DNA of 30,956 bases, from positions 1 to 30,956 of IMG/VR virus record IMGVR_UViG_3300024259_002324; one strand, 5' to 3'. This DNA is from a virus. The translations under genes were made by a program, and so were the position numbers. Numbering within the stretch: position 1 is the first letter of the stretch; each line of letters begins with the position of its first letter. This document shows, in pieces, positions 1-24,373 of this stretch. The notes under the pieces are model-generated. The model was not told the DNA's origin. It did not search any database and saw nothing but the letters and a program-made list of their open reading frames with translations.

Positions 1-120
1 TCTCAAGGTATAATAACTATTCTAAAACCCATAAGAAAACAGTTTAATGAAATCCCTTCGTTTATAATTAGAGAGTTAAAAAATAAATTTGGCAAAGATG
101 CAGAAATAAGAGAGTTCTAA
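1..120 (+). CDS. C-terminal end of an unknown protein (partial)
   Basis: An open frame runs from the first base of the window to a TAA at 118-120 and encodes the last 39 residues of a protein that begins outside the window. The tail is basic and hydrophilic and ends in EIREF. No family is recognisable from this fragment. Its stop codon shares one base with the ATG of the next gene (TAATG), the same junction type seen between several tagged genes downstream, so it is probably the preceding member of that operon. Confidence 0.7.
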   Translation, partial: SQGIITILKPIRKQFNEIPSFIIRELKNKFGKDAEIREF

Positions 121-1943
121 TGAATTGGTTTAAAAAAGCACAACAAAGTTTAATGTTTTATCCATATGGTTCAGAACCTAATCAGCAAGGTGAAAAAGTG
201 CGTCCAATTTCCTTCGATCAAGAAAGACAGGAAAATGTTTACGAATGTGCTGACTGTGGAGAACCAGTTTTAGAAGAAGATGTGGAAAAATGGTACACTG
301 ATAAAGCTCAAAAGGAGGATGTTTCGTACAATATGCCTCCTTATAATTATGACAATATACTCCAATCTATTACACAAGTATCTCAATATCTATTGCCATT
401 CTATAATCAACTACAACAATATATCAAAGATGAAAATTTAGAATCTAAACGAAATGATACATATGATTATGGTTTTAGGTCTGCATTAGGAAGTTGGGAA
501 GTTCAGGTTCCTCAATTGCCAGAGATTTTAAGAAGCTCACAAGGACTTATGGATATCTGTTCTTTCCAAAATAACGGATATAGTAATAATGAAATTTGTA
601 GTTTATTTAACACGACAGAAATTAGCGGAAGTAAATTAAACGATCTATCTGATATAATTTTAAATCCAGAACAAGAAGCTAAAAAGTTTATGGAATATTC
701 TGGTAAGCAATTTGAAATACCTAAAAAATATCCTTTATGTTATGACTGTTTTGGAGATATGATAAAATGTGAATTTTGTGATGAACAGATATTCCCAGAC
801 GATAGAAAATATCAAACAACTTGGAGCGATACAGACTATGCTTGTGAAAAGTGTATTGAGAATGGTCATGCTGACACTTGTATAGAATGTGGAAAAGCTG
901 ATTCTCAAGATAGTATGCATTGGAGAGAAGATGAAGGAATGATTTGTAGTGATTGTCATCAAGACTTAGGTGAAAAATCAACAGATTGGGCGAAAGAACA
1001 AATAACAAATTTAGATATTCTTGTTGGAAAAAATTTACCTATATCACCAAAAGTATTAAGTAGTCTTTCTACTTTTCTGGAAAGATATGTTGAAAAGTAT
1101 GGGAATAATGTATTAAATAATAAAGAATGGGGAAGATTATCGTATTTATCTAAAAAAAGCGGTTTGCCTCAAGGTGCTATTGAGTATTTAGATTTTATTG
1201 AAAAAACTTATGTGCCTGAATCGGATAGTTATGCATCTGAAAATGTGCAAGATATATTAGGTGATATTAATAATAATATAGAAGCTCAAGGATATATGAA
1301 AGAACAATATCCTAATTTAAAATCTTATCAAGATCTTCCTTTTGATATTAAAGTTATGTCAAGTTATAGTAATGAAATGCCAGGTTTTACTATTGGAATA
1401 ACTCCATCAAAAGATTTTTTTGATTTTGCCGAAAAAAAATATCCTAATATTAAGAACATATGGGACAAAATGGGACAGACTCCTCATCATAATGGAACTC
1501 TTGCTTATGCAAGATGTGCTTTTGATATGGGGAATAATTTAGTAATTAATAATTTACAAAGAGATGCAGACTATGATAATTTTATTTCACAAAGTTTTAG
1601 AGGTGCAAATGAAGAAGATAAAATCGCGGCTAAATGGTTAGACATAACGACTAAAAATTGGGATTCATTTTTATTAAATCTAGTTAAAACTATGTGTATT
1701 TCCAAAAATATTAATGCTTATTTAACAACCTTTGACCAACAAAAAAGTAAATGGGGTAATTTACCGATTCATAAATCGAGAAAAACATATGAAGAAGTTC
1801 CAGAAAGAATGGGATTCCCCTTATCTGATCCAGAATATGGTGCATCAGGATTAGTAGAAAGAGGTGGATATGGGGATATGTATCAAGTAGCAAATAACAT
1901 AGGGATGAATTGGTTTAAAAGAGCACAAAATGAACTGGTATAA
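120..1943 (+). CDS. NWYKK-tagged Cys-rich zinc-finger protein
   Basis: A 607-residue protein starting MNWFKKAQ, the tag shared with the next four genes. It has a CxxC pair at residues 43-46 and, around residues 225-280, a dense set of CxxC/CxxxC pairs (CYDC, CEFC, CEKC, CIEC, CSDC) that look like two or three treble-clef or LIM-like zinc sites. The remaining 320 residues are not recognised. The protein ends MNWFKRAQNELV: a second in-frame copy of the tag, then NELV, which is the next gene's tag DNA read in another frame. The start is fixed by the tag and by the TAATG junction. The zinc binding is inferred from Cys spacing; the role (nucleic-acid or protein binding) is unknown. Confidence 0.85.
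   Translation: MNWFKKAQQSLMFYPYGSEPNQQGEKVRPISFDQERQENVYECADCGEPVLEEDVEKWYTDKAQKEDVSYNMPPYNYDNILQSITQVSQYLLPFYNQLQQYIKDENLESKRNDTYDYGFRSALGSWEVQVPQLPEILRSSQGLMDICSFQNNGYSNNEICSLFNTTEISGSKLNDLSDIILNPEQEAKKFMEYSGKQFEIPKKYPLCYDCFGDMIKCEFCDEQIFPDDRKYQTTWSDTDYACEKCIENGHADTCIECGKADSQDSMHWREDEGMICSDCHQDLGEKSTDWAKEQITNLDILVGKNLPISPKVLSSLSTFLERYVEKYGNNVLNNKEWGRLSYLSKKSGLPQGAIEYLDFIEKTYVPESDSYASENVQDILGDINNNIEAQGYMKEQYPNLKSYQDLPFDIKVMSSYSNEMPGFTIGITPSKDFFDFAEKKYPNIKNIWDKMGQTPHHNGTLAYARCAFDMGNNLVINNLQRDADYDNFISQSFRGANEEDKIAAKWLDITTKNWDSFLLNLVKTMCISKNINAYLTTFDQQKSKWGNLPIHKSRKTYEEVPERMGFPLSDPEYGASGLVERGGYGDMYQVANNIGMNWFKRAQNELV
1905..1943 (+). repeat. Tandem NWYKK tag DNA: C-terminal tag scar plus next gene's start
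   Basis: Two diverged copies of the tag DNA lie back to back: 1905-1928 encodes MNWFKRAQ in frame with the upstream gene, and 1930 onward encodes MNWYKR as the start of the downstream gene in another frame. The upstream frame reads the second copy as NELV-stop. The first copy looks like the remains of a tagged start whose body was lost, or of a partial duplication of the junction. Confidence 0.75.
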
Positions 1944-3012
1944 AAGAATAAAATATGCTCAAGTATGGGAAGTGGAAAGCGATGAGTCTTTTGCCGAAGA
2001 ATTAAAAGCTTTCTATGAGTTAGAATATAAGTACCAATGCCTAAAAAATTTCCCATTTGAAGGTATGGACAAAAGATATCAAAACATCTTTAACAAGGTA
2101 GAAGAGTCTCTTATGTACACAATGCAAAATCTAAAAGGGACTCTTATGTCTACCTTTAGCGGATGGTTAGAAACTCATGCCCTTACTGACCCTGCTATGT
2201 GGGCATCTAAAAGAGCAGATCCTTATGGAGACGGATATATGAGTTCTTATGATGCTGAGGAAGCTTTAGATGGTATCGTAGGAGAATACATAAGATATAG
2301 TAATGGAGGACAGTATCCTGTTAATAATAGACCTAACACTTCTACCGTTTTTTCAAATATGCTTGATCAAGTAATATCCGATCCAGGAAAATTTAAATCT
2401 CTTCAAGGTGCGCTAAGCGATATACAAGAAATGGATAGAGAGAGATTAGAGAATGATTTATATAGCGATGAATTTGAAAATTTCGGAATAAATGAAAGAG
2501 GAGAGGCATTTCAATCAGAAGAAGAAGCTCAAGCGTTTATAGAAGAAAGAGTAGGACAAGCAAGCGTTCAAGATTATGTATCTAATTTTGGCAAAGAAGA
2601 ACTTTTGAGTTTATTAGAAGGTCAAGGGCAGATGCAAGAATTTCTGATAGAATTAAACCAGCATCTTGTTTTTCCTTTATGGTATGATTATTGGGGAGGT
2701 ATGGGAATAGACTCAACTAGAGAACTGGCTCAAGAAGCTTATGAGGGACTTGAAAACGCTAATAATTTCGATGAGTTTCATTTAGCTTTAGAAACTGCTA
2801 TCCAGACATGTCATCAAAATGGTTCTATGTTAGAGTATTTAGAAACCTATGGTGGTGAAGAATATGGTGCAGATCCTCAAGAAATTGAAAATATTATGAC
2901 CGAATTAACAGAAGGCAAAGGTAATGCGGAATGGGATAAACAGCTTAAATCTATCGGAGTTAAAATTCCAGTATTAGTTAGAAAACGTAATTTAGAGCAA
3001 GCACAAGTATAA
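1930..3012 (+). CDS. NWYKK-tagged acidic protein of unknown function
   Basis: A 360-residue protein starting MNWYKRIKYAQ. I do not recognise the body. It is acidic, rich in Glu and Gln, probably mostly helical, with no Cys pairs, signal peptide or membrane segment, and it ends in a short basic stretch (VRKRN). The start lies 14 nt inside the previous gene, whose stop codon is the TAA within the tag DNA. The stop overlaps the next ATG by one base. The overlaps suggest translational coupling with both neighbours. The coding call rests on length, tag and gene packing. Confidence 0.85.
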   Translation: MNWYKRIKYAQVWEVESDESFAEELKAFYELEYKYQCLKNFPFEGMDKRYQNIFNKVEESLMYTMQNLKGTLMSTFSGWLETHALTDPAMWASKRADPYGDGYMSSYDAEEALDGIVGEYIRYSNGGQYPVNNRPNTSTVFSNMLDQVISDPGKFKSLQGALSDIQEMDRERLENDLYSDEFENFGINERGEAFQSEEEAQAFIEERVGQASVQDYVSNFGKEELLSLLEGQGQMQEFLIELNQHLVFPLWYDYWGGMGIDSTRELAQEAYEGLENANNFDEFHLALETAIQTCHQNGSMLEYLETYGGEEYGADPQEIENIMTELTEGKGNAEWDKQLKSIGVKIPVLVRKRNLEQAQV

Positions 3013-4607
3013 TGAATTGGTATATAAAGAAAATTCTATTAGCAGGAAATGTTGAAGAATATCTTCAAAGCTTAGGTGCTACTCCAGATATTATCCAATT
3101 CATTATGTCTCAAGGAGATAATTCCCAAATATTAGTTAATGAGTTTAGAAAAAATCCATCTATAACTGTGGAGCAATTACAAGGATTAATTCCTGCTCAA
3201 CAAGAGCAAGTAGATCCTTATTATGATAATGAAAAACGATTTGCAAATGATTATCCATCAATTAGTAAATGGATATTGGTTAATATGAGAAAATTAAGAA
3301 ATGGATTAAGTGATGATAAATTTGATATTCTTTCACCATCAGAACAAAGAAAATATTGGAGTTTTAGAGAAAATATATCAGAGATTAATGATTGGGCATT
3401 AAGATCAGAACCTAGACCAGATATTTCTAATTACACTCCAGAACAAGCATCTCAAGCATCTGACGAATGGCATAGAGCGATGGCAGGACAAGGTGAAGGA
3501 ACTAATTACGAATCTACAAATCAAGAATTAATAATGTATGGCCCTGAATGGAAAAATCCAGAATGGCAAGGTTGGACAGTTCAAAAAGTAATGAGTGAAA
3601 ATGATTTAACAGCAGAAGGGAATAAAATGGACCACTGTGTTGGCTCTTATTGTGAAGATGTTCAAGGAGGATTTAGTGTAATTTATTCATTAAGAGATCC
3701 AAACAATCAACCTCATATCACTATGGACACAGATGATTTCGGAAATATAAAACAAATACAAGGCAAATCAAATTCTACACCAAAAGATGAATATAAAGCA
3801 AAGATTAAAGAATGGATTAGCACAAGTGCTGACGATTTGGGAATAGTTAGAGATATCAATGCATTTGAAAATATGGAAGAACAACACCCCTATGATTCAC
3901 CCAGTGTTAAAGAAATAACAGATGTAATAGAAAATATTGTCCAAGGAGAAGAAAACGAATATGGATTAAAATATATATTTGATAATGATATTGAAACAGT
4001 TATAGACGAGATGGTGACAACAGGAGAAGGAGAAGCAAGTGGGTATTATAGTAGAGACAATGGTTATACAGGAGATATAACAGAGTCATCTCCTTATATA
4101 TCTAATCTTGCTTTAATGTTAGATTTAAAATTACCCAATTGGCCTCGTCATTCTGGGGAATGGGATGTAGTTAAATCAATGCCAAAGCAATCAGACTGGA
4201 AGAATATAAATGAAGTTGAAAAATGGGCTTGGGAAACTAGAGATGAAATACAAGAAGATTTTATGCATTATGAAACAGGTTTAGATTATCCTCAAGAAGA
4301 AGATTATGAAGACCCTAAAGATTATGAAGAAGCTTTGAGAGAGCATGACGATGCTGAATCAGAAATTCATAATGAGTGGATGGGACAATCTGTTAAAGGC
4401 GGATTTGCTAAAGATTTATTAGATGAATTAGAATCATTCAGAAATAGGGGCCTTATTCCAAGTGCTCAAGAACTATATAATATTAAAAAGAAAAAAGAAG
4501 AAGAAAAATTAAAAGCCAGTCCTGCTTATCAAAATGCTTATGACAAAGCTAGAAATGCAATTGAACAAAATACACCATTTGAGTCTGTTGCATTGGAGAA
4601 TATCTAG
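3012..4607 (+). CDS. NWYKK-tagged PcfJ-like protein
   Basis: A 531-residue protein starting MNWYIKKILLAGN. The core at residues 185-270 matches the PcfJ-like family: an EGNKMDHCVGSY block (HCVGSY at 208-213), then IYSLRDP, a PHITMD strand and IKQIQGKSNSTP. PcfJ proteins are known from conjugative plasmids and phages, but their biochemical role is not established. The regions before and after are charged and unassigned, with a very acidic segment near residues 420-460. The TAG stop shares a base with the GTG start of the next gene. The family call is fairly firm from the HCVGSY signature; function is open. Confidence 0.8.
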   Translation: MNWYIKKILLAGNVEEYLQSLGATPDIIQFIMSQGDNSQILVNEFRKNPSITVEQLQGLIPAQQEQVDPYYDNEKRFANDYPSISKWILVNMRKLRNGLSDDKFDILSPSEQRKYWSFRENISEINDWALRSEPRPDISNYTPEQASQASDEWHRAMAGQGEGTNYESTNQELIMYGPEWKNPEWQGWTVQKVMSENDLTAEGNKMDHCVGSYCEDVQGGFSVIYSLRDPNNQPHITMDTDDFGNIKQIQGKSNSTPKDEYKAKIKEWISTSADDLGIVRDINAFENMEEQHPYDSPSVKEITDVIENIVQGEENEYGLKYIFDNDIETVIDEMVTTGEGEASGYYSRDNGYTGDITESSPYISNLALMLDLKLPNWPRHSGEWDVVKSMPKQSDWKNINEVEKWAWETRDEIQEDFMHYETGLDYPQEEDYEDPKDYEEALREHDDAESEIHNEWMGQSVKGGFAKDLLDELESFRNRGLIPSAQELYNIKKKKEEEKLKASPAYQNAYDKARNAIEQNTPFESVALENI

Positions 4608-5977
4608 TGAACTGGTATAAGAAAGCGCAACTAATAAAGATAGCAGCTACAAAATACTTATATCATGGGACAGGTATTCAAAATTTATCTACAATTCTTT
4701 CTGAAGGATTAAAAGCAGATGCTGATAAATTATATGATAACGAAATAGAGCATGGGTCTATACAAACATATGGTGGTGCTTATTTAACTGATAATATTAT
4801 GACAGCTTTATCTTCCGCAGGAAAAAGTTCTGACCTATCTGATTCTAAAGACACATGCCTTGTAACTGTTAAGATAGAAGATTCTACTCCTCATATTGTG
4901 TTAGATGAAGATAATTTTCATAGTCCTGCCTTCGCAATAGCAGGAGCTAATACTTATGATATATGTGCCACCAACTGGAGTCCTGACAATCTTGCTTATT
5001 TTATATTAAATTCTCTTCCTAGTATGATCGATGATATAACTAATAATTATTTGCAAAATTTTAAAAAAATGAGACATGAAGATTCTGATCAACGTATATT
5101 TGATGCTCTTATTCCTTATGCTAAAAATGTAATAGAAACATATTGCTATAGCTCTTTGGCCGCTCAAGTTAATAATTATTTTCAAGGGACTCTTGAATAT
5201 AAGAAAAAATATTTTGAAGAAAAATATCCTCAATTTATAGGTATAGATGAGGCAACAGCGGCTAGTGAATATAGGTCAGCACATGACACTTTAATTCAAA
5301 AATCTCATCGATTAACATCTGATATGGAATCCCAGTTTAGCGCAAATGTTAGGTCTATGGAGAATATATCATACAGAGGAAAAAATAAAATAGTTATGGT
5401 ATCTTCCATATCAGAGAAAGGTTTAAAAAGTAAATATTATACAGAGGCAGATGTCTTATACTTGTCGGATAATTCTTGCTTAGATCAATTTATAAATGAT
5501 ATAACTGAAAGACTTGGCAGATCGTTGATAGTGAGATATAATAATAATGTATTATATGACAATCCAAGGGAAAGGTTTGAGTCTCCAGTGGAAGAGAAAG
5601 CAGCAAGTGGCAATTGGTATAAGAAAGCAGAACAACAGACTGCTGACGATATTGCTAAGAAATGGAGGCAAGAAGGAATCACTCTCTATGTATTCGAGGA
5701 TGGCGATAAGGTAATTCTCGACTCTATTATAGTTCCACCAGAAAGAAGGAAGCAAGGAATAGGGACTCAGATCATGCAAGAATTAACTAACTATGCTGAC
5801 TCTGTTGGAAAGAGAATAGAACTAAGTCCTGGTCAGAAAGATGATTATCATGGGACTACTTCTAAAAACAGGTTAGTTAATTTTTATAAGAGATTCGGGC
5901 TTATTCAAAATAAGGGTAGGAACAAAGATTTTACAACTAATAAAACAATGTACAGGGACCCAAATGAATTGGTATAA
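4607..5977 (+). CDS. NWYKK-tagged ADP-ribosyltransferase-like / GNAT fusion
   Basis: A 456-residue protein with GTG start; the start is supported by the tag (MNWYKKAQ) and by the 1-nt overlap with the upstream TAG. Residues 16-110 read YLYHGTGIQNLSTILSEGL followed by GGAYLTDN and A-rich helix, a pattern of ADP-ribosyltransferase or 2'-phosphotransferase (KptA-like) folds that use NAD. Residues 110-330 are unassigned. At 336-343 a second tag, NWYKKAEQ, appears internally, followed by a GNAT acetyltransferase domain: acetyl-CoA loop VPPERRKQGIGTQI and C-terminal NFYKRFGL. It ends NELV because the next gene's tag supplies the stop. It looks like a fusion of two tagged genes. GNAT call strong, ART call moderate; substrates unknown. 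Confidence 0.8.
   Translation: MNWYKKAQLIKIAATKYLYHGTGIQNLSTILSEGLKADADKLYDNEIEHGSIQTYGGAYLTDNIMTALSSAGKSSDLSDSKDTCLVTVKIEDSTPHIVLDEDNFHSPAFAIAGANTYDICATNWSPDNLAYFILNSLPSMIDDITNNYLQNFKKMRHEDSDQRIFDALIPYAKNVIETYCYSSLAAQVNNYFQGTLEYKKKYFEEKYPQFIGIDEATAASEYRSAHDTLIQKSHRLTSDMESQFSANVRSMENISYRGKNKIVMVSSISEKGLKSKYYTEADVLYLSDNSCLDQFINDITERLGRSLIVRYNNNVLYDNPRERFESPVEEKAASGNWYKKAEQQTADDIAKKWRQEGITLYVFEDGDKVILDSIIVPPERRKQGIGTQIMQELTNYADSVGKRIELSPGQKDDYHGTTSKNRLVNFYKRFGLIQNKGRNKDFTTNKTMYRDPNELV
5612..5635 (+). repeat. Internal copy of NWYKK tag DNA
   Basis: This stretch encodes NWYKKAEQ in frame inside the ART/GNAT gene, exactly between the two domains. The initiating Met is replaced by Gly (GGC before AAT). 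It marks the probable fusion point between two formerly separate tagged genes. Confidence 0.8.
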
Positions 5978-6488
5978 AAAAACATTGACAAGTGAAAGTG
6001 AAAATGATAGTATGCTTCCCATGAATAAAGAATTTATAATTATGCGTGGCACTTCAGGAAGTGGAAAAAGCTATAAAGCCAAACAATTGGCAGGAGAAAG
6101 TGGAGTTATCTGCTCTGCTGACGATTTTTTTATAGAAAAAGGTGAAGGAGAATATGCTTTTGATCCTTCTTTACTAGGACAAGCTCATAAACAATGTCAA
6201 GATAGAGCCACTCAAGCAATTCAGCAAGGAGAATCTCCTGTAATTGTAGATAATACAAATACTCGACTATGGGAGATGAAAAAACTTAAACCTATAATTC
6301 AATTAGCACAATCTTTAGGATATGACGTAAGAATAGAAGAACCTGAGACTGATTGGTGGAAATCAAGAGATATCGATGAGATGGTTAATAAGAATTCTCA
6401 TGGAGTCCCAAGAGAAGCTATTGAGAGAATGGTAAGTAGGTTTGATGAGGGTATTACCGTAGATAATATAATGAATCATGATGAATAA
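5964..6488 (+). CDS. NWYKK-tagged P-loop kinase (AAA_33 type)
   Basis: A 174-residue protein. Walker A is GTSGSGKS at residues 29-36; then SADDFF, IVDNTNTRLWEM and a helical lid with GVPREAIERM near the end. This is the arrangement of AAA_33/polynucleotide-kinase-like phosphotransferases, which usually phosphorylate nucleic-acid ends or small nucleotides. The tagged form starts MNWYKK at 5964, 14 nt inside the previous gene. An internal ATG at 6021 begins MNKEFIIMRGT just before the domain and has a promoter-like sequence directly upstream (5985-6013), so a shorter 155-residue product is possible. Residues 7-19 (TLTSESENDSMLP) appear to be translated promoter DNA. Substrate unknown. Confidence 0.88.
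   Translation: MNWYKKTLTSESENDSMLPMNKEFIIMRGTSGSGKSYKAKQLAGESGVICSADDFFIEKGEGEYAFDPSLLGQAHKQCQDRATQAIQQGESPVIVDNTNTRLWEMKKLKPIIQLAQSLGYDVRIEEPETDWWKSRDIDEMVNKNSHGVPREAIERMVSRFDEGITVDNIMNHDE
5985..6013 (+). promoter_or_regulatory. Candidate sigma70 promoter inside the tagged kinase gene
   Basis: TTGACA at 5985-5990, 17-bp spacer, TAGTAT at 6008-6013. The spacer opens with AGTGAAAGTG, the element seen in most promoters of this window. The expected start of transcription is near 6020, at the internal ATG at 6021, which has no SD, so a leaderless mRNA is possible. Confidence 0.5.
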
Positions 6489-7002
6489 TTTAAAAAAATG
6501 GCCAAAGAATTGGGTAGAGCATGTTAATGAGACATGCTTTTTTTACTTTGAGAACAAGGGTATATCTTTTATTGATTCAAAAATTCTCTGTTCAGACAAA
6601 ACAGAAGATGCTCCAATATATGGCATAAGACTAACATTTCAAAAATATGATAAACTCTATGATATTTTTATTAACTATAGTAATCCTAACTTTATAATTA
6701 ATTATTACTATAAAGATTATTATAAGATAAGGAAGCAAAGAGAATTAGAGCAAGACTTCGTATTTATGGAAGGAAAATTAACTAACGGATCAGATAAGGT
6801 CGGAACTTTTAACTATTTCGATTTAGGAGGTCAGGCCGCCAGAAGTAATCTCTTCTCTCCATATAATATAAGCCAAGGTATAGAAACTACTATTAATTTT
6901 CATGCTGATAATGGTGATGACGATGATGAAGGGGGGGAGAACGATCCAGTTGAACCATTCTCCCCTAGTGATGTGACAGAGCCAGAGCTACTTCTGTGTT
7001 AA
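6478..7002 (+). CDS. Unknown protein with acidic C-terminus
   Basis: A 174-residue protein starting MMNNLKKWPKNW, overlapping the end of the kinase gene by 11 nt. I do not recognise a family. The first 100 residues are rich in aromatic residues and predicted beta strands (FFYFENKGISFIDSK, YDIFINYSN, FIINYYYKDYY). The C-terminus is strongly acidic (DNGDDDDEGGENDP). It lacks a clean NWYKK tag, although KKWPKNW is loosely similar. Its stop overlaps the stop of the convergent minus-strand gene by 4 nt, leaving no room for a terminator between them. Confidence 0.75.
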   Translation: MMNNLKKWPKNWVEHVNETCFFYFENKGISFIDSKILCSDKTEDAPIYGIRLTFQKYDKLYDIFINYSNPNFIINYYYKDYYKIRKQRELEQDFVFMEGKLTNGSDKVGTFNYFDLGGQAARSNLFSPYNISQGIETTINFHADNGDDDDEGGENDPVEPFSPSDVTEPELLLC

Positions 7003-7610
7003 ATTTTTATAGTTTGAGAAAGTATCTCTCTAACTTTAATATCTTCTGTTTTATACCAACCAGTCGGCATGCCTTCAAAACATTGATCTAAATAAGAACA
7101 GTAATGTTTATACCAATTCTTACGAACATGCTCTGCTGATTTGTTTATCTTCTTTTTTTCTGTTCCAGTATTTTTAGAAGCATATCTTTCTGCCTCTTTA
7201 TTAATATCTTCAGATTCTTTTTTATTCACGCAGATAGGTCCCCAGTGAACTAGTTTTCTATCTTCAGAAATTGCCCAACAATCAACGTTATATTTTGCGA
7301 AAGTTAAAAACTGCTTACTAAACTTTATTGCAGAAGGATCATATCCTTGATTCTCTAAATAGCTATTAGAACAAATGCTTTTAACTATTTTATTATCTAT
7401 AGCAAGAAGATCACCAGAATGGAAAGATGTTCTTGCTAAAATATCAATATCTTTAATCCTCGTATTGGGTTTATCTATATTTTTAGAATAAGACCCCCAT
7501 ATATGCATGGATTTTACCCCTTCTGCATTTTTTAAAGAAGAGACAATTTCTTTAATATGTGGCTGCACATCTTTAATTTTCGGCATACATTTTTTATACC
7601 ATGAATCCAA
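6999..7610 (-). CDS. Nucleotidyltransferase-fold protein with NWYKK-like start
   Basis: A 203-residue protein on the minus strand. Residues 36-57 read HIWGSYSKN...KDIDIL: a GS motif at 39-40 followed by DxD at 54-56, the signature of the pol-beta/MNT nucleotidyltransferase superfamily, with another candidate Asp in YNVDCW (near residue 111). The start is TTG at 7608-7610, supported by AAGGAG seven bases upstream; it gives MDSWYKK, close to the NWYKK tag of the plus-strand genes. A second NWYKHY occurs near residue 167. Substrate unknown: such enzymes modify tRNA, antibiotics or proteins. Convergent with the preceding gene and divergent from the next. Confidence 0.85.
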   Translation of the reverse strand: MDSWYKKCMPKIKDVQPHIKEIVSSLKNAEGVKSMHIWGSYSKNIDKPNTRIKDIDILARTSFHSGDLLAIDNKIVKSICSNSYLENQGYDPSAIKFSKQFLTFAKYNVDCWAISEDRKLVHWGPICVNKKESEDINKEAERYASKNTGTEKKKINKSAEHVRKNWYKHYCSYLDQCFEGMPTGWYKTEDIKVREILSQTIKI

Positions 7611-8947: not shown

Positions 8948-9012
8948 AAAATAAAGGATTTTTATTCTTCATGTAGAATATTAATATATCTACAATTAAA
9001 TTGGAGAATAAA

Positions 9013-9951
9013 ATGAGTAAGGAATGGACAAAAGAAGAGAAAAAAATATTAAAAAAGTATTACAAGAAAAAAGATAAAAAAGAATTAATGGAGTTATTGC
9101 CTAATCGTTCATGGGCGGCAATTAATCAATATTCTCAAAAACTAAATATAAAAAGAAGTTACGATACAGTTAGAACAACTAATGTGAAAAAATTAATAGA
9201 AGAAACCCCAGAAGCATATTACTGGATGGGGTTCTTAATGGCAGATGGCCATTTTACGGAAAAAAGAATAATAGTAGGACTTAGTATAAAGGATGTGGAT
9301 CATATTAAAAAATTCGCAAAATTTATATCTGCTGATTATTCAGAGGGTAATAAAAAATGTTGTGGTAAATACTATGGTAGCTGCTCTGTGTCAGCAGCAA
9401 ACTCTGATATAGTTCCTTTGTTAAGAGAAAAATTTAAAATACATAGCAATAAAACACATAACCCTTGTGATATAACATGGATTAAAAATAATGGTCTTCT
9501 ATTAAGCCTTATAATAGGATTTATAGATGGAGATGGGAGTATTTCAAGACAAACAAATAGAACAGATACTTTTTTGAGAATTAAATGCCATTCTAGTTGG
9601 CTTTTTAATTTACAATTTATAAGTGATATTATATGTAAAGATTGCAATTTAAAACCGAACATAGCAGCAATAAATAGACAAGGATATGCAGCGGTTGCCT
9701 TTTCAAATTCAATAATTTTAAAATTTTTAAAGAAAAAAGGCAAAGATCTAAAATTGCCTGTTTTAAAAAGAAAATGGGATAGAGTTAATGAAAATTTTAT
9801 AAGCAAATTTGAAGAATATAGTTATATATTAAAAGAGGTTAAAAACTTAATAAAGGAAGGTCTTAAGAATTACGATATAGCTGATATAGTTGATAGATCT
9901 CCTGCTAGTATTTATCAAATGGTAAAAAAACATAATCTTAGGAAAATATAA
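9013..9951 (+). CDS. LAGLIDADG homing endonuclease with SANT-like and HTH ends
   Basis: A 312-residue free-standing homing endonuclease. The start ATG at 9013 has GGAG seven bases upstream; an in-frame TTG at 9001 lies inside that SD. The N-terminus (WTKEEKKILKKYY...RSWAAINQYSQKLNI) resembles a SANT/Myb DNA-binding helix set. Two LAGLIDADG helices follow: WMGFLMADGHFTE near residue 75 and LIIGFIDGDGSIS near 165, each with its catalytic Asp. The C-terminus (GLKNYDIADIVDRSPASIYQMV) looks like a helix-turn-helix. It is a clear paralog of the minus-strand gene at 19499-20317. It cuts a long DNA site and spreads by homing; the target cannot be seen here. Confidence 0.92.
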   Translation: MSKEWTKEEKKILKKYYKKKDKKELMELLPNRSWAAINQYSQKLNIKRSYDTVRTTNVKKLIEETPEAYYWMGFLMADGHFTEKRIIVGLSIKDVDHIKKFAKFISADYSEGNKKCCGKYYGSCSVSAANSDIVPLLREKFKIHSNKTHNPCDITWIKNNGLLLSLIIGFIDGDGSISRQTNRTDTFLRIKCHSSWLFNLQFISDIICKDCNLKPNIAAINRQGYAAVAFSNSIILKFLKKKGKDLKLPVLKRKWDRVNENFISKFEEYSYILKEVKNLIKEGLKNYDIADIVDRSPASIYQMVKKHNLRKI

Positions 9952-15717: not shown

Positions 15718-16114
15718 ACTGGCTCAAAAAATCTCTAAACTTCAACAAGAGATTCAAAGAGAAAACAGTGTTAGAGCGGACGATCCTAGAAAGATCAACG
15801 TAGAAGATTTGTTCAAAGAACTTAATAATAAAGTTGATGAACTTATCAAATTGAAAATTGCTATTTTTATAGCTTCTACTCCAATGAGAGAAAGCATTTT
15901 AAGACTTAGTGAGCTGAAGTCTAAGGTCGTCTTTCTTCAAAGTATTAGCACAACAGAGGGCATAGTCAGCGGTTTTAGAGAAGATCCCGTTGAGTATACT
16001 GTGGTCTACGATAAAATATTTGTAAAAGAACAGGTAGAATTGTGTGAGAAGAAGATAGATGAAATCCAAGATGAGTTGGACAAGTTTAACCACACAACAG
16101 ATATAGATGTTTAA
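15683..16114 (+). CDS. Coiled-coil protein, DUF6847-like
   Basis: A 143-residue protein starting MTLAKALKQKNRLAQKISKL. The ATG at 15683 has AGGAG seven bases upstream and was preferred over an in-frame ATG at 15641. The N-terminal helix followed by QQEIQRENS and a second helical half with EKKIDEIQDELDKFN point to an antiparallel coiled coil. The MTLAKALK...NRLA start is typical of the DUF6847 group of small phage and bacterial proteins of unknown function. It overlaps the upstream gene by 35 nt and ends the ligase operon. Confidence 0.8.
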   Translation: MTLAKALKQKNRLAQKISKLQQEIQRENSVRADDPRKINVEDLFKELNNKVDELIKLKIAIFIASTPMRESILRLSELKSKVVFLQSISTTEGIVSGFREDPVEYTVVYDKIFVKEQVELCEKKIDEIQDELDKFNHTTDIDV

Positions 16115-16116
16115 CG

Positions 16117-16285
16117 GTTAGGAGAATTGGAAGAACAGAAAAAATGGATATTTACGAACGCCTTTATGGCACTTTGATTTTGATCTTATGATATAAAAAT
16201 TCAAGATTCAATTTTATAACACATAAGAAGCAAAAAGTAAAATTCAATATATTATATTTTTTCTAAGTACTTTGATTCTCCTAAC
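16117..16285 (+). repeat. 11-bp inverted repeat flanking a noncoding segment
   Basis: GTTAGGAGAAT at 16117-16127 is the exact reverse complement of ATTCTCCTAAC at 16275-16285. The 147 bp between them hold no credible gene but include an AT-rich hairpin (16185-16227). The 293-bp gap 16115-16407 as a whole contains this repeat pair, the hairpin and the promoter at 16328. The pair could be the base of a long RNA stem, or the ends of a small lost element. Confidence 0.45.
16185..16227 (+). other. AT-rich hairpin
   Basis: CTTATG at 16185-16190 pairs with CATAAG at 16222-16227; inside, TATAAAAATT pairs with AATTTTATA with one bulged A, around a loop of about eight bases. There is no T-run after it, so it is not a typical terminator. 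It may stabilise the 3' end of the ligase-operon mRNA. Confidence 0.4.
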
Positions 16286-16327
16286 TTATATCTTTTTCGG
16301 AAAAAGTAGAAAAAAGTGAAAAAAGAG

Positions 16328-16355
16328 TTGACATTCATAAGCGAAAGCTTATAAT
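16328..16355 (+). promoter_or_regulatory. Sigma70 promoter for the hydrolase/vWA operon
   Basis: Perfect TTGACA (16328-16333), 16-bp spacer containing AAGCGAAAGC, perfect TATAAT (16350-16355). The AAGCGAAAGCTT core has an AAGC/GCTT inverted repeat. Leader of about 45 nt before the ATG at 16408. Confidence 0.85.
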
Positions 16356-16407
16356 GTTGTATATTGTAGTAATAGATGATAATAAATAATTTGGAAAGGA
16401 CGTAGCA

Positions 16408-17217
16408 ATGGCAGAACGAACAGATCTATTAATCATTGACCCACAAATCGATTTCTGTGATCCCAATGGTAGTCTTTATGTTGATGGGGCAGAAAAAGAC
16501 ATGGAAAGAGTAGCCTCGCTAATAGATAGATGCGGGTCTAAAATTAAACAAATCCACGTAACACTGGATTGTCACCACTTGATAGATGTTGCTCACCCTC
16601 CAATGTGGAGAGATAGTGACGGAAATCCACCACCAGATTTTACGGAAATTACCGCTCAAGAAATGAGAGACGGAAAATGGACTCCTGTTCTACTTCAGTA
16701 TAAGCAGAGATTCATTGACTATGCCGATGCTCTGGAATCTTCTAAGAAAAAGAAACTTTGTATTTGGCCACCTCACTGCTTAATTGGAAGTAATGGCAAT
16801 GCTGTTTTTCCAGTGCTGTTTGATGCCCTAAAAAAATGGGAAGAGAACAATAAAAAGAATGTTCACTATGTTAGTAAGGGTTCTAATCCGTTCACGGAAC
16901 ATTACTCTGCTGTTAAAGCAGAAGTTACTGATCCAACTGACCCAACAACTCAGTTGAATACCAAACTTATCCAAACTATTCAGGATGCTGATGTTACATG
17001 GATAGCGGGAGAGGCTGGAAGTCACTGCGTTAAAGAGACTGTCGAAGATATTGCTGACGGATTCGGTGATGATAGTTATATTAAAAAGCTGAAACTGCTA
17101 ACAGATGCTGTTAGTCCTGTTATCAGCCCATTCGTAGATTTTCCTGCTATTCAGGCGCAGTTTATTGCTGACCTGACTGCAAGGGGAATGCAAACTGCAC
17201 TGACAACTGATTTTTAA
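16408..17217 (+). CDS. Nicotinamidase-like cysteine hydrolase
   Basis: A 269-residue member of the isochorismatase/nicotinamidase superfamily. The triad is visible: Asp11 in IDPQIDF, Lys in VSKGSNPF (near 155) and Cys in GSHCVKET (near 206). TLDCHHLIDVAHP supplies the Asp/His/His of a metal site, and WPPHCLIGSNG matches the WPxHCxxG-xG segment of nicotinamidases, so nicotinamide to nicotinate is the most likely reaction. It is longer than typical PncA (about 190-215) because of insertions after residue 60. AAAGGA precedes the ATG. It is first in an operon, 11 nt before the vWA gene. With nadD in the same window, a role in NAD salvage is plausible. Confidence 0.85.
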   Translation: MAERTDLLIIDPQIDFCDPNGSLYVDGAEKDMERVASLIDRCGSKIKQIHVTLDCHHLIDVAHPPMWRDSDGNPPPDFTEITAQEMRDGKWTPVLLQYKQRFIDYADALESSKKKKLCIWPPHCLIGSNGNAVFPVLFDALKKWEENNKKNVHYVSKGSNPFTEHYSAVKAEVTDPTDPTTQLNTKLIQTIQDADVTWIAGEAGSHCVKETVEDIADGFGDDSYIKKLKLLTDAVSPVISPFVDFPAIQAQFIADLTARGMQTALTTDF

Positions 17218-17228
17218 GGAATCTTATC

Positions 17229-17969
17229 GTGAACAGTAAAACTTTAGAACAACACAGTTTAACGGGCCAGCACTTTGGTTATTCAGCGGCAGGGATTGAT
17301 GATCTTGGTGCTACTGAATACACTCTTGTCACTATCGCAGTTGATGAGAGTGGTAGTGTCTCTGCCTTTAAAGATGAAATGATAGCTTGTATTCAAGAAG
17401 TTGTCAAGGCATGTAAGTTCAGTCCAAGATCTGATTACCTGCTTATAAGACTTGTTGCTTTTAACGGAGCTATGAGAGAAATTCACGGATTTAAACAGTT
17501 GATAGACTGTGATGTGAATGACTATCTTGGAGCAATCACTCCTTGTGGAAGCACAGCTTTGTTTGAGACTGCTCGTAATGCTATCACTGCTACAAATGAT
17601 TATGGTAAGCAGTTGGCAGATAGCGATTTTGAAGCTAATGCTATTGTCTTTATTATTACTGACGGTGGAGACAACTCATCAGGAAGTATAACTGCAACTG
17701 AGGTCGGCAATGTTTTAAATGAAGCAAGGAGAGACGAAGCTCTTGAGTCAATCAATACTATCCTGATCGGTGTCGGAGTTGGTAGTTATAGCGGAGTTAG
17801 CACTTACCTTGATGCCTTCAAAAACGATGCTGGGCTAACTCAGTATGTAGAGATTAAAGATGCTAATGATAAAAGTTTGGCAAAAGTTGCAGACTTTATT
17901 TCTAAGTCTGTATCAAGTCAAAGTTCTTCTCTTGGAACAGGCGGTCCAAGTCAAGCATTGACTTTCTAA
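17229..17969 (+). CDS. vWA (TerY-like) domain protein
   Basis: A 246-residue protein with one von Willebrand A domain. The MIDAS metal site is complete: DESGS at 39-43, the Thr in CGSTALFE (near 117) and Asp in ITDGGDN (near 145). GTG start with AAGGA eight bases upstream. No signal peptide, so cytoplasmic. The C-terminal tail is Ser-rich (SKSVSSQSSSLGTGG). Single-domain cytoplasmic vWA proteins of this type are called TerY when they occur with a PP2C phosphatase and a protein kinase, as here (18274 and 20424). In that scheme the vWA protein is a likely phosphorylation target or scaffold. A terminator hairpin follows directly. Confidence 0.9.
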   Translation: MNSKTLEQHSLTGQHFGYSAAGIDDLGATEYTLVTIAVDESGSVSAFKDEMIACIQEVVKACKFSPRSDYLLIRLVAFNGAMREIHGFKQLIDCDVNDYLGAITPCGSTALFETARNAITATNDYGKQLADSDFEANAIVFIITDGGDNSSGSITATEVGNVLNEARRDEALESINTILIGVGVGSYSGVSTYLDAFKNDAGLTQYVEIKDANDKSLAKVADFISKSVSSQSSSLGTGGPSQALTF

Positions 17970-17989
17970 AAACAATTTCGTGGGCATGG

Positions 17990-18028
17990 AACCCTACCTG
18001 TCCTTTTGGGTGGGTAGGGTTTTTTTTA
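17990..18028 (+). terminator. Rho-independent terminator or attenuator
   Basis: AACCCTACC (17990-17998) pairs with GGTAGGGTT ending at 18021, a 9-bp stem with a 14-base loop, followed by an unbroken T run to 18028. It lies after the vWA gene and only 14 nt before the next start, with no promoter in between, so it probably lets a fraction of transcription through to the PP2C genes. Confidence 0.85.
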
Positions 18029-18042
18029 TAGGAGAAAATAAA

Positions 18043-18273
18043 ATGGAACTGACAGTAGAAATGTTAAGAATAGCAATAGCAGGAAAACCAGCTAATGCTA
18101 AAGTAAAAATAGGCACATGCACATTCGACAACGATGGAGAAACTATAAGAAGCAAAGAAGCCGCTGATATATATGAAGTTAATAGTTACGCTCCAGATGA
18201 AGCAGACCCATCAGATACCTCACAAATAAAAACTGTGGTATTAACAATAGTAGGATCAATAGGAGAGAAATAA
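18043..18273 (+). CDS. Small unknown protein
   Basis: A 76-residue protein. ATG at 18043 with AGGAG eight bases upstream; an in-frame ATG at 17980 is rejected because it would be translated through the terminator hairpin. It starts MELTVEMLRIAIAGKPANAKVKIG, a helix then strand pattern of small phage proteins with a 'regulate L-x-G-x-P-x-x-A-x-V-x-I-G' motif of unknown role, and ends with a hydrophobic strand (IKTVVLTIVGSIG). The stop abuts the ATG of the phosphatase gene. Confidence 0.75.
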   Translation: MELTVEMLRIAIAGKPANAKVKIGTCTFDNDGETIRSKEAADIYEVNSYAPDEADPSDTSQIKTVVLTIVGSIGEK

Positions 18274-19125
18274 ATGAATACCGATTGTGCTTTTTATATT
18301 GGAACCACTCATGATATTTGTCAAGACTATGCTCTAGCAGGTCAAAAATCTATCGCAGTGTCAGACGGTTGTTCAGGTTCTCCTCGTTCTGATATAGGAT
18401 CAAGAGTTCTTAGCATAACTGCTATGAATAAAATGGTAGAGTTAGATAGCCTTGCAAATTTTGATGAAAAAGAATGTATCCTACTTGCTCGTCCTGCTAT
18501 AAAAATACTGAATATGCCTAATGAATGTTTAGATGCGACTCTTCTCACTGCTACAGCGTATGAGACAGGAGCTATGGCATTATGTTATGGTGATGGAGTT
18601 ATAGCTATCAAAATTAAGAACGGCAATTTGGTTATCATAGATTGTGCTTATTCTGACAGCTATCCATTTTACATGAACTATCTTTATGATCGAACTGGCA
18701 GGTATTCAGATTGGATTCAAAACCATAACAAAAGAGATGTTGCTCAGACAGTCCTTAGCCCTGAGGGAGAATGGATAGCAACAGTGTCAGCAAAACATAA
18801 CGTTGAACGAATAGAAAATGATCTTGGTCTTATAAGATTAACTGAGAACAGAGTGGCTGTAGAAATAGCTGTTAAAGAAGAAGTAGAATATATGGCTATT
18901 ATGTCAGATGGTGTTCATAGTTTTTATGAAACTATTATGACAAATACTTCTAAATGTAACAAGTCTCTATCTTACATAGATGTAGTTAAAGAACTTTTAT
19001 CTTTCAAGAATTTTAATACATCATTCGTTCAAAGAAGAATGAATAAGTTTCGTAAGAATTGTGCTAAAAAGAACTGGGGCAATGCTGATGATCTTTCATT
19101 AGCTGTTATTTATTTCGGAGAATAA
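18274..19125 (+). CDS. PP2C-like protein phosphatase
   Basis: A 283-residue protein of the PP2C (PPM) Ser/Thr phosphatase family, of the compact bacterial PP2C_2 type. Metal-site motifs in order: QDYA near residue 16, AVSDGCSGSP near 28, LDATLL near 87, GDGVIAIK near 104, IMSDGVHSF near 210 and the terminal NADDLSLAVIYF near 270. It should remove phosphate from proteins using two Mn or Mg ions. AGGAGAG precedes the ATG. It lies between a vWA protein gene and, after an inserted homing endonuclease gene, a protein kinase gene, and probably reverses that kinase. Confidence 0.9.
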   Translation: MNTDCAFYIGTTHDICQDYALAGQKSIAVSDGCSGSPRSDIGSRVLSITAMNKMVELDSLANFDEKECILLARPAIKILNMPNECLDATLLTATAYETGAMALCYGDGVIAIKIKNGNLVIIDCAYSDSYPFYMNYLYDRTGRYSDWIQNHNKRDVAQTVLSPEGEWIATVSAKHNVERIENDLGLIRLTENRVAVEIAVKEEVEYMAIMSDGVHSFYETIMTNTSKCNKSLSYIDVVKELLSFKNFNTSFVQRRMNKFRKNCAKKNWGNADDLSLAVIYFGE

Positions 19126-19126
19126 A

Positions 19127-19492
19127 ATGGCAGGGTTAGAAGTTAACTATTTTTGTATTCGTTGCATGACATCTCTAACAGGCAAGCAAGAGAAATTTTG
19201 TAGTGATAAGTGTGGCAGAAAGTATAGACATAAAATATCTAACCGCAAAAAATGGAAAGAAATTAATGCCAAAGCTAAAACTAAAAAAATAGAAAAAAAG
19301 ACCAGACGAAAAATACTGATTGAACAAGAAGCAAAAAGGCGAGAGGAATTGGAATCAAAAGATATTTGTCCTGCTTGTGGATCTTGGGATAAAGATACAA
19401 GAAAAGATTATGATGTGATTTATAAGGGAATCAAAGGTAAATGTTTAAATCCTATTTGTAAGGCAGAATGGAAAATAAAAGTTCCTAACTAA
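19127..19492 (+). CDS. Small zinc-finger protein
   Basis: A 121-residue protein with two zinc sites: CIRC...FCSDKCGRKYR at residues 11-30 (an FCS-x-x-C treble-clef pattern) and CPAC...CLNPIC near residues 84-115 (zinc ribbon). Between them lies a very basic helix (RKKWKEINAKAKTKKIEKKTRRK) that could bind nucleic acid. GGAG precedes the ATG one base after the phosphatase stop, so it is in that operon. It ends 6 nt before the stop of the convergent homing endonuclease. No specific function is recognised. Confidence 0.82.
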   Translation: MAGLEVNYFCIRCMTSLTGKQEKFCSDKCGRKYRHKISNRKKWKEINAKAKTKKIEKKTRRKILIEQEAKRREELESKDICPACGSWDKDTRKDYDVIYKGIKGKCLNPICKAEWKIKVPN

Positions 19493-19498
19493 AATAAT

Positions 19499-20317
19499 TT
19501 AAATTTTTATTATTCCTAACTTTCTTTCCATAAATGGTATTTTTAATAGTATTGCTTTCTTTTTTATTTTAATTAAGAGAGGCCTATATGAGATATACAT
19601 TTCAGCTAGTTTGTATTTTTTTCTTATGCTTTTATCATCTTGAGGCAAATTAATGCTTCTTTCTCTAATAAATGCAGGTTTGGAGTTGCATTTTTCATTA
19701 AAATAATCATATAAGAAGTTTTTAATATAATCTAGATTTTGTAACCAAGAAGGATGTAATGATATACTAAGAGTATATGCTTCACAATTTTTATTTTTAC
19801 TGATACTCCCATCTCCATCTATAATTCCCATAATGAGAGAGAATAAAAGTTCTTCATTTTGTATATTTAAGTCGCAAGGTTCATATGTTTTTCTGTTAGT
19901 TATTTTAAATTTATTTTTTAACTGCCTTACATTAGAGGCATCTATAGATCGTACCTGGCAATAATCATGAGGCATTTTATGTATTTTATTATTAGAATTT
20001 ATAAATTTTTTATACCTTAAAAGATGATCCATATCTTTATAACTCATTCCTAAAGAAATTCTATTTTCTGTAAAGCTACCATCTGCCATTAAAAACCCTA
20101 TCCAATAATAAGATATAGGGTCATCTCTTAATAAAATAGAAATATCAGATAATTTTCTAGATTTTCTACGTATTTTTAAATATCTAGCTTTATCTTTAAT
20201 TTGACTCCATGTCCTATTTCTTAAACTCCCCATTAAGAGATGTTTACTCCCTTCATAATAATTCCTGATTAAAAAATTAGTTTCTAATTCTGTCCATTTA
20301 TTATATCTTTTAATCAT
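19499..20317 (-). CDS. LAGLIDADG homing endonuclease (minus strand)
   Basis: A 272-residue paralog of the endonuclease at 9013. Two LAGLIDADG helices, WIGFLMADGSFTE near residue 80 and LIMGIIDGDGSIS near 165, each keep the catalytic Asp. The N-terminus (NKWTELETNFLIRNYY...RTWSQIKDKARYLKI) is the same SANT-like unit. Shared features with the first copy include KD-DH after helix 1, PCD before helix 2 and SWL-NL after it. It lacks the C-terminal HTH. AGGTAA precedes the ATG. It lies opposite to its neighbours and splits the phosphatase genes from the kinase gene, which suggests later insertion. Confidence 0.92.
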   Translation of the reverse strand: MIKRYNKWTELETNFLIRNYYEGSKHLLMGSLRNRTWSQIKDKARYLKIRRKSRKLSDISILLRDDPISYYWIGFLMADGSFTENRISLGMSYKDMDHLLRYKKFINSNNKIHKMPHDYCQVRSIDASNVRQLKNKFKITNRKTYEPCDLNIQNEELLFSLIMGIIDGDGSISKNKNCEAYTLSISLHPSWLQNLDYIKNFLYDYFNEKCNSKPAFIRERSINLPQDDKSIRKKYKLAEMYISYRPLLIKIKKKAILLKIPFMERKLGIIKI

Positions 20318-20389
20318 AATTTTACCTATTAAATAATCTCTCTTAACGGGTATATGTTTAATAGTTTTTACTAAAATCCTTTAATATTC

Positions 20390-20417
20390 TTGACAAAAGC
20401 GAAAAAAAAGTTATAAT
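20390..20417 (+). promoter_or_regulatory. Sigma70 promoter of the kinase gene
   Basis: Perfect TTGACA (20390-20395), 16-bp spacer with AAAGCGAAA, perfect TATAAT (20412-20417). The predicted transcription start falls at 20424-20425, on the kinase ATG, so the mRNA may be leaderless. Confidence 0.85.
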
Positions 20418-20423
20418 TATGAA

Positions 20424-22106: not shown

Positions 22107-22107
22107 A

Positions 22108-22458
22108 ATGGACGAGCAAAAAGAATATTGGATTAGATTATTTATTAAAAGATGCCTCTCTTTGGACAATTATGAAAAACAAAGACATCTCTTTATTGAG
22201 TGGTGTGGAAAAACATATAACGTCTCAGATGGTATTTTTGAAGATCTAAAAAAGAAGTATACAATAAAAAACTATATTGATAGGCTTGTTCCTGTTATAG
22301 ATAAGTATTTTACGCTTGAAGATCTAAAGGCTTCTATTAGATTTTATTCTTCCGATGCTGGAAAAAAGATATTAGATTATCAATTTTCTCAGGATATGGG
22401 AGAAGTCGGAAAAGATATAGGAGAAGAGATAGAAAAAGATTTTGCAAAGAAGAAATAA
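22108..22458 (+). CDS. DUF2059-like small protein
   Basis: A 116-residue protein starting one base after the kinase stop. The second half, LVPVIDKYFTLEDLKASIRFYSSDAGKKILDYQ, matches the DUF2059 signature (KYFT-x-x-DL...FY-S-x-GKK), a helical domain of unknown function. Family members are usually exported, but this copy has no signal peptide and should be cytoplasmic. The C-terminus is a charged helix. Cotranscription with the kinase suggests a shared role, but nothing indicates what it is. Confidence 0.8.
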   Translation: MDEQKEYWIRLFIKRCLSLDNYEKQRHLFIEWCGKTYNVSDGIFEDLKKKYTIKNYIDRLVPVIDKYFTLEDLKASIRFYSSDAGKKILDYQFSQDMGEVGKDIGEEIEKDFAKKK

Positions 22459-22464
22459 TTTCAC

Positions 22465-22493
22465 TTGACACAAAGTGAAAAAAGTGATATAAT
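22465..22493 (+). promoter_or_regulatory. Sigma70 promoter of the radical SAM operon
   Basis: Perfect TTGACA (22465-22470), 17-bp spacer with AAAGTGAAAAAAGTGA, perfect TATAAT (22488-22493). Leader of about 43 nt that carries the same 17-nt element as the leader at 11414. Confidence 0.85.
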
Positions 22494-22508
22494 CTCATTT
22501 CGAATGAT

Positions 22509-22525
22509 AATAATGATATAAATAA
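22509..22525 (+). repeat. 17-nt leader element, copy 2
   Basis: AATAATGATATAAATAA, identical to 11414-11430 and in the same place relative to its promoter. A looser relative (GATGATAATAAATAA) lies in the leader near 16375. Confidence 0.45.
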
Positions 22526-22542
22526 TTAGAAATGAAGAACTT

Positions 22543-23619: not shown

Positions 23620-23641
23620 AGAAATTACTTCTCAAGCTTGT

Positions 23642-23761
23642 ATGATCATAGTTTACGGTATCTGTCTATACATGGTAGTCGCTATGCTTATTATTTTCTG
23701 GAAATTATATTTAATCATGTTAGGGCTGATCGCCCTTGCAGTTTATTTGGAGCCAAAATGA
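23642..23761 (+). CDS. 39-residue membrane protein
   Basis: The frame from ATG 23642 encodes MIIVYGICLYMVVAML..., almost wholly hydrophobic, with two candidate membrane stretches around a short FWKLY break and ending YLEPK. Its TGA at 23759-23761 overlaps the ATG of the next gene (ATGA), the standard coupled junction in phage operons; this and the hydrophobic pattern are the evidence. No clear SD is seen, so translation may be coupled to the radical SAM gene 22 nt upstream. Possibly a holin-like or inner-membrane protein; function unknown. Confidence 0.6.
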   Translation: MIIVYGICLYMVVAMLIIFWKLYLIMLGLIALAVYLEPK

Positions 23762-24153: not shown

Positions 24154-24373
24154 AGCTTGGTATAAAGAATATTGTCCAAAATGTGAAGCAGTTAATTGGA
24201 TCTGTAATGGCGATGAGTCTGATATAACTGCCATGGATGTCGATGGATACAAGTGTAGAAAATGTGGAGTTATTCATTATCTTGGCCCTGATTATGAATG
24301 GGACTCAGAACAGGGTCACTGGGAAAGTGTGGAAGATTGCAATTGGGAGTTAGGAAAAGAAACTCCTGATTAA
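24146..24373 (+). CDS. Small zinc-ribbon protein
   Basis: A 75-residue protein with two CxxC pairs, CPKC (residues 10-13) and CRKC (38-41), forming a likely zinc ribbon, followed by a Trp/Glu-rich tail (YEWDSEQGHWESVEDCNWELG). The ATG at 24146 overlaps the upstream stop by 8 nt; GGAG is ten bases before. The start MSEAWYKEY resembles the NWYKK tag, but the match is short and may be chance. Confidence 0.78.
   Translation: MSEAWYKEYCPKCEAVNWICNGDESDITAMDVDGYKCRKCGVIHYLGPDYEWDSEQGHWESVEDCNWELGKETPD

Follow-up and report, generated by a model that had tools for sequence, protein, structure and literature searches.

A peptide tag shared by adjacent genes

We analyzed a 30,956-nucleotide stretch of viral DNA (IMG/VR record IMGVR_UViG_3300024259_002324, positions 1 to 30,956; hereafter the window), within whose first 7,610 positions a short peptide of the form MNWYKKAQ (for example MNWYKKAQLIKIAATK), here called the NWY tag, opens one gene after another. 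Five consecutive plus-strand genes begin with it, and a minus-strand gene with a TTG start and AAGGAG upstream begins with a weaker form; these six start peptides, listed in the initial annotation of the DNA, are all present. Two further copies had been overlooked: gene 1 also ends in one, and in gene 4 a copy lies where the ADP-ribosyltransferase (ART) domain meets the GNAT domain. The tagged genes and tag copies are as follows.

120..143, plus strand: tag 1, MNWFKKAQ, N-terminus of gene 1
120..1943, plus strand: gene 1, 607 amino acids, Cys-rich zinc-finger-like clusters, second tag copy at its end
1905..1928, plus strand: C-terminal tag copy of gene 1 (MNWFKRAQNELV, then the stop; MNWFKRAQ), directly ahead of the gene 2 tag
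1930..1962, plus strand: tag 2, MNWYKRIKYAQ, a longer form, N-terminus of gene 2
1930..3012, plus strand: gene 2, 360 amino acids, no recognised domain
3012..3035, plus strand: tag 3, MNWYIKKI, N-terminus of gene 3
3012..4607, plus strand: gene 3, 531 amino acids, PcfJ-like (PF14284, E=7e-15)
4607..4630, plus strand: tag 4, MNWYKKAQ, GTG start, N-terminus of gene 4
4607..5977, plus strand: gene 4, 456 amino acids, ART-like (YHGT motif, weak PARP/KptA matches) plus GNAT
5612..5632, plus strand: internal tag of gene 4, GNWYKKAE, at the ART/GNAT junction, a predicted processing site
5964..5984, plus strand: tag 5, MNWYKKT, N-terminus of gene 5
5964..6488, plus strand: gene 5, 174 amino acids, AAA_33/polynucleotide-kinase-like P-loop kinase
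6999..7610, minus strand: 203-amino-acid gene, predicted in the initial annotation to be nucleotidyltransferase-like
7590..7610, minus strand: tag 6, the weaker form, MDSWYKK, TTG start

The proteins behind these tags had been described as at least six in number and unrelated in their bodies. Their bodies are indeed unrelated, with PcfJ-like, GNAT and P-loop kinase proteins among them. Neither gene 1 nor gene 2 could be placed in a family with confidence (for gene 1 Pfam gave only RecO_C, E=2e-4, just short of the cutoff), and the nucleotidyltransferase-like gene has no Pfam match. As to their number, five are clear and the sixth is weaker. Orthologues of the 203-amino-acid gene in the related contigs G002, G018 and G006 are 56-80% identical and keep the TTG start and the WY pair, a search for further orthologues gave only two that were already known, and WY is conserved in all members of the family (MRWYQRALP, MKWYERAIP). 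Since this pair also enters the first helix-like stretch, it may be part of the fold. The orthologue of gene 2 in G009/G017 starts with MRWFELAKYGQ (31% identity), and in gene 4 a second K-x-A site (LIKIAA) follows the tag. By reading, no long hydrophobic stretch of the kind found in Sec or Tat signal peptides follows the tag in the window genes.

The tag recurs in relatives and is conserved as a peptide

When degenerate DNA patterns were searched against IMG/VR, MNWYKKAQ was found in 8 stretches and MNWYKKA in 22. In the whole related IMG/VR contigs, on which the following counts are based, tagged open reading frames (ORFs) stand in clusters; there are 85 distinct tagged ORFs, which blastp of their bodies divides into 66 unrelated families. 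All of them have W at position 3, as the search pattern required. Y follows at position 4 in 82 ORFs and K at position 5 in 71, a K or R stands at position 6 in 62, and at position 7 there is A in 42 ORFs and S in 12. Residue 2 varies among N, S, D and T, and residue 4 between Y and F. The recurrence of the tag in these contigs is beyond chance: protein interiors predict 0.47 ORFs with W-[YF]-[KR]-[KR] close to the N-terminus, and 41 have it (87-fold). Likewise, of 732 ORFs, 45 have hydrophobic-[KR]-x-A in their first 12-residue bin; later bins give 4-10, the reversed motif gives 3, and none of 213 bacterial ORFs has the motif there. A general C-terminal version was considered and set aside, being only weakly enriched (5 cases against 0.9 expected). 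Silent positions within the tag vary roughly as the background does (AAT/AAC 25/14, TAT/TAC 32/7, all four Ala codons in use), which places the conservation at the level of the peptide and agrees with the selection on the peptide that had been suggested from the window.

Among genome_contigs (~85,000 prokaryote species) the DNA pattern lay mostly in Sel1-repeat interiors or in stray matches, and one ORF (L152) was the sole plausible N-terminal tag. An origin of the tag in Sel1 repeats was considered and rejected, as MNWYKKA lies within tandem repeats of ~36 amino acids in many of the bacterial matches but not in the tagged phage proteins. A literature search for the peptide gave no match, and the tag is unmentioned in the literature searched.

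Distribution of the tag among orthologues

On the right-hand side of the tagged block, the window shares synteny with G018, G002 and G006. To the left of their shared kinase, further tagged genes are absent from G018; they encode an ART, a GNAT and an unknown protein in G002, two unknown proteins and an ART in G006, and at least four proteins in the window. G002 encodes its ART and its GNAT in two ORFs that are tagged individually, which suggests that the copy inside window gene 4 is a fusion scar. Internal copies also occur elsewhere, among them in a 1,235-amino-acid protein of G004, a 729-amino-acid protein of G017 and a protein of G006. The G006 orthologue of gene 3, which is 51% identical, has no N-terminal tag, and its C-terminal end is GNWYKNKKQIGKYELV followed by the stop.

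Loss of the tag from orthologues had been named at the outset as evidence against an address label, and we looked for it. Five kinase orthologues keep the tag (window gene 5, G018, G006, G002 and G001), with a linker of variable length between it and the kinase domain. Six kinase relatives, in contigs where the capsid family phrog_2522 (see below) was not found, these contigs being fragments, lack it, and one PcfJ-like orthologue carries it at the C-terminus instead. The kinase relative of L310, outside the head group (match 1501-1962), has another N-terminal extension, MYSKISSMLDEVAESLESKGLIREASELDKISNTLEVIAAKEG, ahead of the domain, perhaps the address module of another lineage.

Most tagged contigs share one type of head

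A phrog_2522 capsid and a protease-scaffold protein of ~1,850-2,300 amino acids are both encoded in 13 of the 18 tagged contigs; of the remaining five, three are fragments of <21 kb, one is 115 kb long, and one is T4-like and has only a stray match. The T4-type capsid (Gp23, PF07068) was rejected as the common head, being found in G010 alone, whose pattern match is stray. Tagged genes stand behind the capsid gene on the same strand in G018, G002, G006 and G011 and adjoin it in G001 and G016, while in G003 and G005, which have the tagged ORF in common and count as one case, the tag lies <150 bp from it. No clear tag was seen in the stretches read of three distant relatives with the same capsid (Tunturi_5, mycobacteriophage Alice and LR745208); the Tunturi_5 protease starts with MPIPLKTAN. 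Within the head-gene block itself (G002, 15905-30616; G018, 18756-32315, minus strand), several proteins of differing length start with MK[IL][IL]K[TS]xx[YF].

The first ~280 residues of the protease-scaffold protein are a head maturation protease. This domain matches the phrog head maturation protease (phrog_18299) at 1e-10, and an AlphaFold2 model built on a 45-sequence alignment (mean predicted local distance difference test score, pLDDT, 77; leader residues 1-43 mostly of very low confidence) could be re-aligned with herpesvirus assemblins at Z up to 10.6 (1vzv) and with T4 gp21 (5jbl) at Z 8.6 over 122 residues. Foldseek alone gave no match to the model under 0.001 (E about 0.01). As the Foldseek result is weak and a Z near 8 moderate, the fold match is supportive when taken together with the phrog hit, and the modelled domain resembles a gp21/assemblin-type head protease.

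The tag core occurs in head proteins

The core of the tag, (hydrophobic)-K-x-A-(Q/S/T), matches the leaders of two head proteins, a site ahead of the protease domain and a motif enriched in the scaffold. The protease leader reads MxxxKxA and the pre-domain site (I/V/L/M)(K/R)(T/V/L)A(S/A), for example PNQIKTASTTVE; K5 and A38 are >=90% conserved among 45 proteases whose mean column identity is 43%, and both segments have a pLDDT below 50. The GRKRIKDRG protein, a neighbour of the protease, has leaders of very different length, of which 38 of 42 contain [KR]-x-[AS] (at most 27 in shuffles), and one of them, MKYNYKKA ahead of GRTR, is nearly the tag sequence.

Beyond residue 45, and with expectations taken from shuffles, the motif occurs 289 times in the 51 protease-scaffold proteins (44 shuffled, 6.6-fold; 45 reversed) and 96 times in other upstream ORFs (26 shuffled, 24 reversed), against 33 times in downstream ORFs (30 expected) and 4 times in capsid and decoration proteins (11 expected). 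The loci are related, which raises these counts while leaving the contrast between forward and reversed motif intact. Abundance in the scaffold together with scarcity in the mature shell would be expected of a site for the maturation protease. The tag has its hydrophobic-K-x-A in common with these putative protease sites, which are over-represented in the scaffold and conserved ahead of the protease domain.

Phage G and the starts of other lineages

The closest cultivated relative by capsid is Bacillus (Lysinibacillus) phage G, whose capsid protein is of the same family and 54-55% identical to that of G018. Its protease, gp19, has VKIA and LVKTAA sites and is a separate protein of 301 codons without a large scaffold tail. 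We looked for the NWY tag (NWYKK) in phage G and did not find it, and the strict K-x-A motif is not enriched at phage G N-termini. Starts of the form RL(x)K[KRT] (of the MKRLIKK[AS] kind) do stand at the N-terminus of 23 of 720 phage G ORFs, against 1-5 per later bin, and this tag is carried by at least seven ART-like proteins, assigned as such by reading an HGTS-type motif. One phage G ART is homologous to one NWY-lineage ART (E 1e-4), and the tags of the two differ. A third form, MKIYKIA/MKIYRLA, is found in G004 and L280, and the same protein begins with MNWYKKATLKIAKH in G001 and with MRIYKIAKH in G004.

The window also holds a second common start distinct from the NWY tag, MK[x]RTGF[VI][SA]NSS[ST]xxFI, on five plus-strand genes with differing bodies (24600-27223; starts near 24600, 25157, 25501, 26437 and 26705), two of which have orthologues in G018.

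Tagged proteins and their predicted functions

Among ten tagged proteins of relatives, Pfam recognised ART-PolyVal, cREC_REC, 2_5_RNA_ligase2, SLT, PolyA_pol (twice, once with HD) and HicA. The tagged ART of G002 is PF18760 ART-PolyVal (1e-17), the 2_5_RNA_ligase2 protein has a match to Acb1 below the cutoff, and the GNAT matches DarB/PLxRFG-type proteins of other phages. Most tagged polypeptides have a single domain; window gene 4 (ART-GNAT) and the 1,235-residue G004 protein come close to combining two or more polyvalent-type domains. Domains of the polyvalent type are predicted to be delivered by the virion, and phage G is noted to encode at least 10 ARTs (PMC5512222, PMC9503650). The earlier suggestion that an ART together with modifying enzymes would suit effectors injected with the DNA fits this cargo, whose domains are of predicted virion-delivered, polyvalent types (PMC5512222).

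Genes resembling those for NAD biosynthesis (NadD-like, phosphoribosyltransferase-like and NadE-like, by the appearance of their sequences) occur together with the ART-rich cargo (window 27369-28049; G018 52405-53610 and 57957-58769). Elsewhere in the window two similar proteins (9001-9951, plus strand; 19499-20317, minus strand) are homing-endonuclease-like, and G018 has an intein in its terminase and a LAGLIDADG-containing insert in its portal.

A proposed head-targeting propeptide

We consider it probable that the tag is a head-targeting propeptide, analogous to the capsid targeting sequence (CTS) of phage T4 and removed by the head protease. The sequences show the tag, its portability and its conservation as a peptide, its linkage with a single head type, its motif in head proteins, what kind of protease the heads have and what kinds of cargo are tagged; we infer packaging, cleavage and injection as follows. 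The window phage would be a member of a group of giant phages whose heads are of the phage G type, and in this group the tag is placed N-terminally on unrelated late proteins and occasionally between domains or at the C-terminus. The tag, which resembles the leaders of the group's head proteins, would draw this cargo into the core of scaffold and protease in the growing head, where the scaffold-fused gp21/assemblin-type protease may cut after the Ala of (hydrophobic)-K-x-A. The mature enzymes would then be freed in the capsid and injected into the bacterium with the DNA, and cleavage at the internal tag of the window ART-GNAT protein would yield two separate effectors. Of the explanations offered initially for a portable address label, those of capsid packaging and of a protease site are thus favoured, given the co-occurrence with one head type, the core motif in head proteins, the proximity to capsid genes and the predicted polyvalent cargo.

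Several observations weigh against this proposal. The kinase of G011 is a tag-less orthologue within the group, some tagged genes lie 50-100 kb from the capsid gene, and many loci with a phrog_2522-type head have no NWY tag within 10 kb of it. In about half of the tags position 7 is A; others have S, T or I there or are of a longer form, so that a strict K-x-A cut misfits some of them. Finally, the window contains no head genes, and the head type of its phage is therefore taken from close relatives.

The misfitting tags would be less troublesome if the peptide loaded its cargo by binding the head or core and stayed uncleaved, its likeness to K-x-A sites reflecting a common scaffold surface that both bind. 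Targeting and processing residues are separable in the T4 CTS (PMC9026906), and such a peptide would also account for the head linkage and the scaffold motif; yet enrichment in the scaffold, scarcity in the shell and the position ahead of the protease domain match cleavage better, and we regard an uncleaved peptide as unlikely. A more distant alternative, which we judge improbable, is an address to some other site in the cell (a phage compartment, the membrane, a replication complex or a chaperone), with the link to the head due to common ancestry. Tagged genes do occur far from head genes, the tagged island lies between a membrane-protein gene and the kinase, and some of the cargo enzymes could act late in the cell; such an address, however, leaves unexplained both the motif in head-protein leaders and scaffold and the situation in phage G, where a different tag accompanies the same cargo class and a related head.

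An element acting in DNA or RNA (a late promoter, a translation enhancer or a recombination seam) that is translated by chance seems very improbable to us. The sequence ATGAAYTGGTATAAA is AT-rich with a promoter-like TATAAA, and in 10 of 70 cases the ORF upstream of a tagged gene overlaps it and ends in [NYD]ELV and the stop (window 1930 and 5964; L005 7884; L049 1348; L040 1501), an ending that arises because the upstream stop codon falls within the tag DNA of the next gene. The GNAT gene, moreover, has a different next gene in the window and in G002 with the same overlap. Set against this are the background-like silent sites, the variation of residues 2 (N/S/D/T) and 4 (Y/F), and the in-frame copies between domains and at C-termini.

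A wider version of the propeptide reading can be put forward only tentatively, namely that phage G-type giant phages practise open-ended loading, in which any protein bearing the peptide of its lineage enters the head, internal copies are cut to give separate effectors, and cassettes swap at the tag, with each lineage using its own peptide (NWYKKA, KIYKIA/KIYRLA or KRLIKKA). If this is true, an injected arsenal could be read from sequence alone. If the propeptide reading itself is right, a simple pattern would list the virion-delivered effectors among the hundreds of unknown proteins of giant phages, for which virion proteomics would otherwise be needed. Such a list would cover candidate anti-defence enzymes (Acb1-like proteins, cREC, ARTs). 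The principle of T4 capsid targeting would extend to phage G-type heads holding ~500 kb, the uncharacterised head protease would gain a testable cleavage rule, and the tag would suggest itself as a short peptide with which proteins could be loaded into capsids of very large size.

Comparison with known systems

The closest parallel is the CTS of T4, where propeptides of 10-19 residues target internal proteins to the prohead core and are cut by gp21, and where the first 10 residues of IPIII are enough for packaging (PMC9026906). As on IPI-III and Alt, a short N-terminal peptide here stands on unrelated cargo, and relatives of the window phage encode a gp21-type protease that would trim it. In T4, moreover, gp21 itself bears a sequence like a cleavage site close to its N-terminus, and Alt is processed at the C-terminal end as well (PMC9026906), paralleling the protease leader and the C-terminal tag copies described above. 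The two differ in that the tag combines (hydrophobic)-K-x-A with N-W-Y and is not the T4 site: no conserved Glu of the kind that precedes the T4 cut was found in the tags, whose position 7 is mostly Ala or Ser, so the tag would act like a CTS without being the T4 CTS by sequence. There are also tens of cargo families here against a handful in T4, tag copies inside multidomain proteins, and a protease fused to a large scaffold-like tail.

SPN3US and phiKZ are likewise giant phages. The SPN3US prohead protease gp245 removes N-terminal propeptides from head proteins (PMC10052503), and long propeptides carry multiple cleavage motifs, a feature that the scaffold of the present group also seems to have. 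Most SPN3US propeptides, however, have 111-254 residues (two have 20-24), and no single short tag on unrelated enzymes is reported (PMC10052503). Polyvalent proteins (ART-GNAT, DarB, PLxRFG; PMC5512222), which are predicted to be packaged and injected, share the ART-PolyVal, GNAT, kinase and nucleotidyltransferase domains and place ART next to GNAT within a single polypeptide, the arrangement of window gene 4, but they are single giant proteins, whereas here the domains are mostly carried by separate short tagged proteins. Phage G, finally, has a related capsid, similar sites in gp19 and many tagged proteins, ART-like ones among them, and differs in its tag (MKRLIKK[AS] rather than MNWYKKAQ) and in a protease that is not fused to a scaffold tail.

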